Part shown: positions 22,107-54,391 of the stretch, in pieces
Position numbering within the stretch: position 1 is the first letter of the stretch
Layout: every line of letters begins with the position of its first letter
Assembly (NCBI RefSeq): GCF_901538265.1
Contig: NZ_LR593886.1
Span: 7,399,738 to 7,463,737 of the forward strand
Origin: Gemmata massiliana
GTDB taxonomy: Bacteria > Planctomycetota > Planctomycetia > Gemmatales > Gemmataceae
Direction: 5' to 3'
Length of the DNA stretch: 64,000 bases
Notes under the pieces: generated by a model
What the model was told of the DNA's origin: nothing
Database searches by the model: none
What the model saw: the letters and a program-made list of their open reading frames with translations, nothing else
Made by a program: the position numbers and the translations under genes

Positions 22107-23945
22107 ATGTTCGGTGACGTGCTCCGCAAATTCGGCTCTCTGGTCGCAGGCGCGACCGGACCGATCGTGCGCGCACGCGACCGCGTTTGGCACCTATCAC
22201 CCGAAGGCGAAGCCCTCTTCGGCTCGGCGGGACCGTCCCTCGATGCCTGGATCGCCGACGGTTCGGCCGAAGTAGTAAAAAGCGGCCCGCACCGCACGGT
22301 GTACCGCGTTGTACTCGCGTCCGGCACGGGGTACGTGAAGCACTGCCGCATCAACGGGCCGCGGGCGTGGGCGCGCGAAGTGATACGGTCCCCAAAAGCG
22401 CGACTCGAATTCGAGAACGCTACTCGCCTGCGGGCGTTCGGCATTGGGGCGGCAATTCCACTCGCATGGGGCACGTCGGACACGCGCTGGCCGGGCCAAA
22501 GTTTCCTCATCACACACGACCTCGCCCCCGCCATTGCCTTCCCCGACTTCGTGGAGAAGCGCCCACTCGTTCCGTGCGAACGCCGTAAACTGGCGCACGC
22601 TTTAGGTGCATTCCTGGCTCGGCTCCACGAAAACGGCGTCGCACACCCGGACCCGCACCCCGGCAATCTGCTTGTGGAGTGGGGGCAAAAACGACCTACC
22701 CCCCCGTCCCCCCTCCCCGAAGGGAAGGGGGAGCTGACACGTAAAGTCTCGGGGATTGGGACCACGCACTGTGCCGGTTCGTTCTCCCCCTTCCCTTCGG
22801 GGAGAGAGGACGGGGGGGTAGGTTGCCTCTACTCCACCCCCGAATTCAGCCTCCTTGATGTCCATGCGGTCCGGTTCGGCGCTCCGTTGTCGTGGGCTGA
22901 GAGCCGCGCGAATCTGATCCGCTTCAACCGCTGGTTCCAACTGCGTGCGAGTCAAACGGACCGGCTCCGGTTTTGGCGCAGCTACTGCGAGGGGCGCAAA
23001 ACACTCCCCAATCTCGGTGCGAAGGAAGCAAAAGAACTGGAGCGCGAAACACTTGCCTCCAATCGCCGGTTCTGGGTGACGCGCACGACGCGGTACCGCG
23101 GAACGCACCGCACCATTCGCAAAATACGGTCAGGGCGAGTGCGGGGGCTGGCCGTGCGTGACCTGCCAGGTGACTTCCTCCGCGTGCTTCTGGCTGCTCC
23201 CAACGACCTGTTCACCAAGTCCGGTACGCGGTTACTCAAGCAGTGCGTGAGTTCCACGGTCGCGGAACTGGAGATGCCGACTCCCAACGGCCCGCGAACC
23301 GTCATTCTGAAGCGCGTTAACGTGCGGAGCGCCCTCGATCTGCTGAAAAATCTGTTCCGCTCGTCGGCAGTGCGGCGGTCGTGGCTGTTCGGTCACGGGT
23401 TGTGCGAACGGTGGCTCCCGACCCCGCGCCCGCTCGCCATGTTTCACGTCTACCGCGGCGGATTTCTGCCCGCGGAAGGCTATTTGCTTACCGAAAAGGT
23501 GCCACACGCGATCGGCTTGACCGAAGCCGTGAAAGCGTGTCGCGACACCCGCGTATTGCGTTCCTGGGGTGAAAAACTGGCCCGCGTGGTGCGTACCATG
23601 CACGATCGCGGCGTTTCGCACCGCGATCTGAAGGCACCCAATGTTATGCTCCAGAACGCGGCGATCGATCCCGTGAACGCGACGCCCGTGCTCATCGACC
23701 TCGTTGGCGTTCGGGCCAGCTTGAACGCGGTACCGTTCGCCCGACGAGCCAAAGAACTCGCCCGATTGAACGCGAGCTTCCTCGCAACGCCACACGTCAC
23801 GCGCACGGAGCGACTGCGGTTCCTGCGTGCGTACCTGAGCGTCGGGGAAAGGCAGTTAGGCTGGAAAACGTGGTGGAATGCGGTATCTGCGGCGACCGCA
23901 GCGAAGGTGGCGAAGAACCACCGGAGCGGGCGCGTGCTCGGATAA
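22107..23945 (+). CDS. Tandem LPS-kinase-like protein with an in-frame palindromic insert
   Basis: 612 aa, ATG at 22107. Two kinase lobes. Lobe 1 (about 40-330) has GYVKHCRI, a catalytic loop AHPDPHPGNLLV (D182, N187) and LLDVHAVRFG (D251). Lobe 2 (about 340-600) has VILKRVN, a canonical HRDLKAPNVML (H505, D507, N512) and VLIDLVG. The gap between N187 and D251 is 64 residues instead of the usual ~13-20, because a ~130-base palindromic repeat has entered the gene in frame (residues ~196-239). Lobe 2 looks active; whether lobe 1 tolerates the insert is unknown. Likely an LPS-core kinase. Confidence 0.8.
   Translation: MFGDVLRKFGSLVAGATGPIVRARDRVWHLSPEGEALFGSAGPSLDAWIADGSAEVVKSGPHRTVYRVVLASGTGYVKHCRINGPRAWAREVIRSPKARLEFENATRLRAFGIGAAIPLAWGTSDTRWPGQSFLITHDLAPAIAFPDFVEKRPLVPCERRKLAHALGAFLARLHENGVAHPDPHPGNLLVEWGQKRPTPPSPLPEGKGELTRKVSGIGTTHCAGSFSPFPSGREDGGVGCLYSTPEFSLLDVHAVRFGAPLSWAESRANLIRFNRWFQLRASQTDRLRFWRSYCEGRKTLPNLGAKEAKELERETLASNRRFWVTRTTRYRGTHRTIRKIRSGRVRGLAVRDLPGDFLRVLLAAPNDLFTKSGTRLLKQCVSSTVAELEMPTPNGPRTVILKRVNVRSALDLLKNLFRSSAVRRSWLFGHGLCERWLPTPRPLAMFHVYRGGFLPAEGYLLTEKVPHAIGLTEAVKACRDTRVLRSWGEKLARVVRTMHDRGVSHRDLKAPNVMLQNAAIDPVNATPVLIDLVGVRASLNAVPFARRAKELARLNASFLATPHVTRTERLRFLRAYLSVGERQLGWKTWWNAVSAATAAKVAKNHRSGRVLG
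22694..22823. repeat. Palindromic repeat element inside a coding sequence
   Basis: 40-base arms (22694-22733 and 22784-22823) are inverse complements with two mismatches and a 50-base spacer. The arms begin ACCTACCCCCCCGTCC and end GAAGGGAAGGGGGAG. This C/G-tract style is typical of intergenic palindromes in Gemmata-like genomes, but here it is translated within the kinase gene. It is not explained by kinase family structure. Confidence 0.85.
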
Positions 23946-28540: not shown

Positions 28541-28618
28541 AAGGCGAACGGCCAGTGCAAGCCAGTAAGAGCAGCGAAGCGTTTTTGACAGGATTTACAG
28601 GATCAACACGATCAAAAA
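28541..28618 (+). repeat. Dispersed ~75-nt repeat, copy A
   Basis: Begins AAGGCGAACGGCCAGTG and ends GATCAACACGATCAAAAA; the core is TTTTTGACAGGATTTACAGG. It is an inverted partner of copy B at 29053-29120. The last 46 bases of the two differ at two positions, and copy A has ~10 extra bases in the GC-rich half. Confidence 0.8.
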
Positions 28619-28648
28619 TAAATACCTGATCGGTCGTCTAAGCTTCAT

Positions 28649-28984
<336 letters not shown>

Positions 28985-29052
28985 TCAGGAGGTCTACGGT
29001 ACCGCCCCGTCCGTTGCCTCACAAGCTTCGCTGTTCGGTGAGCCTCAGTTGG

Positions 29053-29120
29053 TTTTTAATCGTGTTGATCCTGTAAATCCTGTCAAAAATGCTTCGTTGC
29101 TCTCACCAGCCGTTCGCCTT
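29053..29120 (-). repeat. Dispersed ~75-nt repeat, copy B
   Basis: On the minus strand it reads AAGGCGAACGGCTGGTGAG, then GCAACGAAGC, TTTTTGACAGGATTTACAGG and ATCAACACGATTAAAAA. Opposite orientation to copy A on the other side of the GIY-YIG gene. Confidence 0.8.
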
Positions 29121-29697: not shown

Positions 29698-29723
29698 AGG
29701 GCTGATGCCGTCGCTCTTTGCGA

Positions 29724-29785
29724 CCTGTGAATCCTGTCAAAACTCTTCGCGGTTCCCACAGGCCGGCTTACACCGGCCGTTCGCC
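29724..29785 (-). repeat. Dispersed ~75-nt repeat, copy C (tail truncated)
   Basis: On the minus strand: GGCGAACGGCCGGTGTAAGC, CGGCC, then CGCGAAGAGTTTTGACAGGA and TTCACAGG. It has the GC-rich hairpin half (GGCCGGTGTAAGCCGGCC) but stops before the ATCAACA end. Confidence 0.7.
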
Positions 29786-29858
29786 AAATGCCAACTGGCG
29801 CACCGACCGCTCACCTCAGCGCCACCAGATCAGCAAGTTCGCACAGTTTCTTTGCTTG

Positions 29859-29895
29859 ATCTTGTTGATCCTGTTAATCCTGTCAAAACTCTTCA
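29859..29895 (-). repeat. Dispersed ~75-nt repeat, copy D (head missing)
   Basis: On the minus strand: TGAAGAGTTTTGACAGGATT then AACAGGATCAACAAGAT. It has only the AT-richer half of the repeat and lies 26 bases before the start of the next gene, in the same orientation as copy C. Confidence 0.75.
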
Positions 29896-51687: not shown

Positions 51688-51762
51688 AGGCGAACGGCCG
51701 GTGCGAGCCGGCTGGTGAAGGCCGCGAAGAATTTTTGACAGGATTAACAGGATCAACAAGAT
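51688..51762 (+). repeat. Dispersed ~75-nt repeat, copy E
   Basis: The most complete copy: AGGCGAACGGCCGGTGCGAG, CCGGCTGGTGAAGGCCGCGA, AGAATTTTTGACAGGATTAA, CAGGATCAACAAGAT. It has the GC-rich hairpin part and the AT-richer GACAGGATTAACAGG part. It lies upstream of the isomerase gene start. Confidence 0.8.
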
Positions 51763-51847
51763 TCGGACAAGCCAATGCACTGTAGTTCCCGCAACATCAT
51801 ACTTCCGCAGTTTGTAACGGGGCGGTTCATCCAGCAACACCGCCGGG

Positions 51848-53789: not shown

Positions 53790-54391
53790 GGTCAGCTTCT
53801 CCGCGTTGAAAAGAAAAGACGGGAACCGATCCGCCGGTCCGAGTAACCGGCGACACGACCGCAGTGACATGCGCGGTCGTGGGAAGTGTACTCAGCTACC
53901 GGGCGAGGGGCGCGGGCTTACAACAGAATTTCACATCGGAAACTAGGATAGTGGGAGAAGACAGAGAACTGATATCAGAAGGCAGAGGACAGAAGACAGA
54001 AATCAGCAAAGGCAGAATGGCCACAAAAAAGCACAAAGAGCACAAAAGAAGAGGGCAAGTATCAGAAGACTAAAATCGCACCCTTTGGCTTGCCCCAATA
54101 GGGGCAACCAATGGTAGCCCAAGGCTACGCCAAACGGCCCGAGTTTGGGGGAAGTTTGCCGAGGTTTCGATTGCGAAGCTCGCTTCACCCCTGATTACTC
54201 GCCTGCGCCCCACGGCGCTGAACCAGATATTCACTCTTCTCGCGTCTGATCCGCGTAATCTGCGTTATCAGCGGTTCCGCCTTCTGATCCCTGTTCTCTT
54301 CTTTTGTGCCCTTTGTGCTTTTTTGTGGCCATTCTGCCTTTTGTCTTGATCCGTGTTCTCTGTGTTTATCCGTGGCGGATTTCGCCCCTCG
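53790..54391. other. Long intergenic region with nested repeats
   Basis: 602 bases without a supported gene. It contains purine-rich AGACAGA-type repeats (53950-54006), the 61-base inverted repeat (54008-54341), and in its spacer two small hairpins (TTGCCCC..GGGGCAA around 54095; GGTAGCC..GGCTAC around 54111). Short frames over it are not protein-like. Confidence 0.6.
54008..54341. repeat. 61-nt inverted repeat pair
   Basis: Arms 54008-54068 and 54281-54341 are inverse complements with 5 mismatches; the outer 46 bases (AAAGGCAGAATGGCC, ACAAAAAAGCACAAAG...) differ at a single position. The spacer is 212 bases. Immediately outside and inside are related CGCGTAATCTGCG-type blocks. It resembles, in style, the pair at 24990-25093. 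Confidence 0.85.

Follow-up and report, generated by a model that had tools for sequence, protein, structure and literature searches.

The 64,000-nt stretch of Gemmata massiliana DNA analysed here, to which we refer as the window, holds a kinase gene with a long palindrome inside its coding sequence, and the reading frame passes through it. What is this palindrome, how does the protein accommodate it, and does it belong to a known kind of element? We will first describe the element and its host gene, then the copies in the rest of the genome and the orthologous sites in related species, and finally the codon phase of the arms, weighing the competing explanations where the evidence bears on them.

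The palindrome and its host gene

The original prediction described two 40-base arms that are inverse complements but for two mismatches, and a frame that stays open across the element. Both descriptions are accurate: the arms are complementary at 38 of 40 positions with 50 nt between them, and the kinase ORF stays open through the whole palindrome (Table 1), at which a very stable hairpin is predicted in the mRNA. In 75% of the copies, the A or T that borders the arms is symmetric as well, so that the true length of the element is probably 132 nt (AACCT...AGGTT), a multiple of three. Beyond this first outside base the symmetry is at chance, and an extension of the palindrome into the host flanks through template-switch correction was rejected. 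An Rfam search with the element gave no score near the gathering threshold.

The second lobe of the kinase matches PF06293 (E 1e-23), the first retains the kinase motifs HPDPHPGN and LLDVH, and WaaP 6dfl, the best Foldseek match of the kinase model, is the nearest solved fold. The 64 residues between N187 and D251 had been attributed for about 44 of them to the repeat, and the comparison with an insert-free orthologue bears this out: the spacing is 17 in the kinase of G003, so the window kinase has about 47 extra residues, of which 44 come from the repeat. In the AlphaFold2 model, made with 26 orthologues and with a mean pLDDT of 88, residues 196-240 are the sole stretch with a pLDDT below 50, flanked by predicted strands at 188-191 and 246-249. 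Of the two fates imagined for the insert, the model favours the first, namely that it folds out as a loop. The second, inactivation of lobe 1, is ruled out: the omega of this lobe is about 0.12 (0.12-0.17 in the G000 comparisons), similar to that of lobe 2, purifying selection acts on it in insert carriers and non-carriers alike, and its catalytic residues are invariant in the alignment of 26 sequences. Taken together, the disordered turn in the model and the purifying selection on lobe 1 suggest that we are most likely dealing with a loop that is exposed and tolerated, not with an inactivating insert.

Table 1. Features of the element and of its host gene, in window positions
Feature	Position	Strand	Remarks
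Palindromic element, family A, 130 nt	22694-22823	.	Reads as PTPPSPLPEGKGELTRKVSGIGTTHCAGSFSPFPSGREDGGVG; A of ACCTACC at codon position 3
Left arm, 40 nt, holding a small imperfect hairpin CCCCCCTCCCCGAAGGGAAGGGGG	22694-22733	+	
Loop, 50 nt, varying among copies, both orientations occur	22734-22783	+	
Right arm, 40 nt, pairing with the left arm at 38/40 (95%)	22784-22823	+	
Host gene, two-lobe Kdo/WaaP-type kinase, 612 aa	22107-23945	+	ORF, Pfam, orthologue alignment
N187, lobe-1 catalytic loop HPDPHPGN	22665-22667	+	Invariant in 26 orthologues
D251, lobe-1 metal-binding motif LLDVH	22857-22859	+	Invariant in 26 orthologues
Codons of residues 196-240, predicted disordered loop, lobe-1 beta7-beta8 turn	22692-22826	+	AlphaFold2

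A dispersed family residing mostly in coding sequences

The genome of the window is a single contig of 10.1 Mb. A nucleotide search of this genome with the element retrieved, ahead of weaker matches, 20 other copies that cover 85-100% of it and are 76-84% identical to it; the full-length copies lie on both strands, mostly at 74-84% identity. About 70 distinct places match a covariance model that was trained on the best copies, so that the copy counts favour copies resembling these. The palindrome in the kinase is thus not a product of chance, since the same element recurs genome-wide. Its copies, which we term family A, span 127-136 nt; aligned in one orientation, they have common arms (ACCTACCCCCCCRTCCCCCCTCCCTGAAGGGAAGGGGGAG and the reverse complement), and the length of their loop varies in steps of 3 (47/50/53/56). 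Within the genus, the covariance model has matches in 16 of 19 genomes. Outside it, similarly styled arms occur in some of the family's other genera (G028, G033, G034, G035), not in most of the others tested. A recurrence of the arm in intergenic regions had been envisaged: the arm does recur many times, but the copies of family A are mostly inside genes. Two mini elements of 52 nt, L081 and L083 (G000:C1:4580426-4580477 and 1527922-1527973), are in frame with their arms fused and the loop absent, and are either deletion products or the ancestral core.

This location is accompanied by a marked respect of the frame. In 26 of the 34 best copies, the flanks are coding in the same strand and frame and no stop occurs across the element, for a rate of 23.4% under random insertion (P about 1e-10). 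The null consisted of the same elements inserted at random into the window with a length-correcting duplication of 2 nt; a first null had omitted this duplication and yielded 2.9%, but we set it aside as unfair, since element lengths are 1 mod 3 (31/34 of the best copies). A stricter test, in which 160 nt were skipped on each side, leaves 20/34 in frame against a null of 13.2%. All these frames were judged by a codon-usage score trained on the window and applied to the flanks of the copies, so the gene calls are score-based. Eight of the 34 best copies fail the frame test, some of them adjoining other repeats, and at least L022 and L063 seem to be off the frame or to lie at the edge of a gene. 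Weaker matches of the model are in frame in 19 cases out of 37, while the 18 others fail because of stops, gene borders or clearly non-coding copies.

Besides the kinase, at least two dozen genes hold in-frame copies, and many of them are housekeeping genes. Their Pfam assignments include MoeA, a KdtA-like transferase, a class V aminotransferase, an AIR synthase/ThiL-like protein, SelB, MgsA, a PNKP-ligase, a sulfatase, an amine oxidase, SMC (with the copy within the hinge), a NuoL-like protein, a CheA-like kinase and an AMP-ligase, and in the host ORFs the element is flanked by Pfam domains, on one side or on both. Judging from the open frames and the codon usage, the codons of the element are probably translated into peptide.

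We therefore favour, with good confidence, the explanation in which this hairpin of 130-132 nt is a non-autonomous, dispersed palindromic element, surviving in frame and translated as a linker. Copies of the element would land in genes and would survive where the frame is kept and where the site is a loop at the surface or between domains, and the surviving copies would then be translated as a proline/glycine-rich disordered linker. That the element moves as a mobile element is suggested by the distribution of its copies, as we identified no transposase, and the target-site duplication expected of a MITE was not seen when occupied and empty sites, the flanks of which are too diverged, were compared.

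Empty, occupied and refilled sites in the genus

As expected from the original prediction, kinases free of the insert exist. The inserts that other species carry at this site are different palindromes. The insert is present in 7 of about 17 congeners, while in the remaining congeners, as in the other genera we looked at, there is a short turn (about 11-12 residues) at this place; G001, G002 and G003 are among the insert-free orthologues. The inserts differ in sequence: that of G018 has 44-nt arms (AGAACCTAACCCCCCAACCCCC...), G012 has a nested stack within a region of 276 nt, and G010 has yet another palindrome. On a tree of the downstream part of the gene, the presence of the insert requires four changes.

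The same picture holds for 15 other sites followed in G009, G012, G004 and G001, which are either empty or filled, at the same or an adjacent codon, with palindromes that differ but are built on the same general plan. Empty sites are found for KdtA in G004 and G001, for the sulfatase in G001, and for the amine oxidase and NuoL in G012, and that of MgsA is empty in more distant genera. The arms specific to G001 are complementary at 46/46 positions in MgsA and at 48/48 in NuoL. Between species, the palindromes resemble one another more by their architecture than by sequence identity. Where the insert splits the match in two pieces, its length is divisible by 3 in 31/31 cases in G012, G004 and G001, a count that omits the single-piece tblastn matches, which are in frame by construction.

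Only 5 of the 15 two-piece inserts of G009 keep the frame. This genome (Gemmata sp. IIL30), a close relative of that of the window, corresponds to the G. massiliana sequenced by 454 (454 Titanium; PMC4672568), and its out-of-frame inserts are plausibly homopolymer errors in runs of C; as such runs invite errors in 454 sequencing, we do not read these frameshifts as biology. The frameshifts, which would truncate annotated housekeeping proteins, are probably sequencing errors. Several inserts of this assembly (e.g., L033, L208-L222) are often out of frame with apparent differences in the length of C-runs.

Family A is not the only palindrome in these genes. The genome also contains about 42 copies of a second palindromic family, B (PNPLTPFPKKEGG...LSPSPFRGGVGEGL); 13 of the 20 tested are in frame, and many directly adjoin family A. 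At least three palindrome families are in fact nested in one another, in frame. The peptide EGLQPQ, which we had considered as a flank motif of family A, was rejected as such, being the end of family B. In L004 (MoeA, - strand), family A lies within family B and is followed by a third palindrome-like stretch, all in one reading frame. In L068:373-3951, a CheA-like protein (Hpt, HATPase, CheW, receiver) has a nested insert of 190 nt, in frame, which combines parts of two palindrome families.

These observations lend themselves to a variant of the main explanation that differs in how the copies spread: the shared sites would be old and filled once in an ancestor, their content would then be swapped with that of other copies in the same genome, through recombination or nested insertion, and new sites would be rare. 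Different palindromes do reuse the same codon position across species in MgsA, the FAD oxidase, SMC and the kinase, family B ends are directly adjoined by family A at many sites, and intergenic copies are few among the best ones. On the other hand, the empty sites of G001 (kinase, sulfatase) and of G012 (amine oxidase, NuoL) lie inside the occupied clade, and together with the four changes on the kinase tree they imply that loss and/or regain must be frequent too. We consider this variant a genuine possibility, albeit one we would not bet on.

A single phase open in both orientations

The arms carry stops in two of the three phases, and the third is open. The A of ACCTACC falls at codon position 3 in 25 of the first 28 copies (15 with the loop forward, 10 with the loop reversed). 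No stop interrupts this phase on either strand in any of the 19 copies of 130 nt, and each of the other four frames is open in just 1 to 4 of them. The same phase is open in either orientation because the element is palindromic. In this open phase, third codon positions are paired with each other between the two arms, and this geometry means that matched changes at these positions can be silent in both arms.

The two arms do seem to change in concert. Among aligned copies, the stem is paired in 96.8% of cells, and double-sided changes are seen in 20 cells, against 6.1 in shuffles. Between orthologous copies of G000 and G009 (at least 85% aligned and at least 75% identical, with the sequencing errors of G009 included), both sides have changed in 6 of 289 pairs, each time to a complementary pair; were the sides to change independently, about 2 double changes, complementary or not, would be expected. 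Both results point to arm-to-arm correction in place, by which the arms may be kept complementary; replacement with another copy is an alternative.

One can go further and propose an element that dwells almost wholly in coding sequences, with a phase lock on both strands, a length that is a multiple of 3 and paired third positions, and that would spread or be exchanged among fixed permissive loops of housekeeping proteins across the genus, its arms changing in concert. We put this extension forward tentatively, as a proposal that may well prove too strong.

Would the hosts themselves benefit from the insert, for example as a regulatory or interaction loop? The persistence of sites across species would fit such a selected function, and so would the copies that diverged along with their species (MgsA, SelB and the kinase, in comparison with G009). 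But the content of the sites varies between species and many orthologues have no insert at all. Moreover, the diversity of the loop has no excess at third positions (P 0.41), hence the peptide sequence itself seems free, and a constraint on the encoded peptide was discarded. A selected function is therefore quite improbable.

Even less probable is the removal of the element before or during translation, by RNA excision or by ribosome bypassing as in Magnusiomyces mitochondria: the very stable mRNA hairpin would suit it, but bypassing or excision needs neither a length divisible by 3 nor the lack of stops, and both are found. The reading of the element as a REP-type repeat spread by a RAYT (Y1) transposase deserves hardly any credence, as the short palindromes with GTAG in the ends in the species of the window are countered by the ends without GTAG in related species and by the mostly extragenic location of REPs (PMC3733652), the best copies of family A being mostly inside genes; with 0 matches to Y1_Tnp (PF01797) in the genome, in a search that was positive in 5 control genomes, this origin was rejected.

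Relation to known systems

The dispersed and translated palindromic element that we favour is closest in kind to the elements of Rickettsia (RPE) and Wolbachia. The genomes of these two genera are small and those of obligate intracellular bacteria, while Gemmata is a free-living, GC-rich planctomycete. The RPE and Wolbachia elements are palindromes of 100-150 bp, present in many copies and in frame in conserved genes, with insertion positions common to several species and with one gene hosting different groups (RPE-4/6/7) depending on the species (PMC3767692, PMC10969869, PMC2229807); activity was reported for a guanylate kinase that carries such an insert (PMC2229807). The Gemmata palindromes are likewise dispersed, in frame and absent from some orthologous sites. 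They differ by their arms of 40-48 nt, often near perfect, for 12 contiguous bp in RPE (PMC2229807), by the same phase being open on both strands and by at least three nested families. A descent from the RPE families is unlikely, considering the host phylum and the base composition.

Other systems share only part of these features. The Correia/NEMIS elements of Neisseria (107 bp) are small inverted-repeat elements as well, and their open frames are joined in frame to other ORFs (PMC2229807), but they have target duplications and TA ends, none of which was seen in the Gemmata element. In nematomorph mitochondria, long near-perfect inverted repeats also lie in coding sequence with both arms translated, and the arms are apparently kept alike over time (PMC6649704), as in Gemmata; those arms, however, code for native, conserved residues and are no dispersed repeats, whereas the Gemmata palindrome is an added segment. 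As for REPs, they are dispersed palindromes as well, also reported in planctomycetes (PMC3733652), but they measure 20-40 bp, are tagged, mostly extragenic and accompanied by RAYT genes, none of which was found in the Gemmata genome.

The original prediction deemed a planctomycete case of Rickettsia-type coding insertion unusual; a search of an open-access library returned no description of coding palindromes in Gemmata or planctomycetes. As far as this search goes, the planctomycete case is new, and so are the phase lock on both strands, the reuse of sites by different palindromes, the nested families and the concerted arms. Coding palindromes of the Rickettsia/Wolbachia type thus also occur in an unrelated, free-living lineage, in which about 19 sequenced Gemmata species with empty, old and replaced sites make it possible to test the movement of the element and its preference for genes, as well as the upkeep of palindromy in translated sequence and the capacity of protein loops to tolerate inserts of 44 residues. 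For annotation, this means that low-complexity stretches like PTPPSPLPEGKGE in planctomycete proteins are insertions, not domains.

Finally, the window holds other repeats. An intergenic inverted repeat at 54008-54341, with 61-nt arms that are 92% complementary and 212 nt apart, has pieces that turn up again at dozens of genomic sites, and forms a separate dispersed family. A short dispersed repeat, TTTTTGACAGGATTNACAGGATCAACANGAT, lies at 28565-29106, 29710-29888 and 51709-51763, partly as inverted pairs, and is found at 31 places of the genome with at most 2 mismatches, for 0 with the reversed control.
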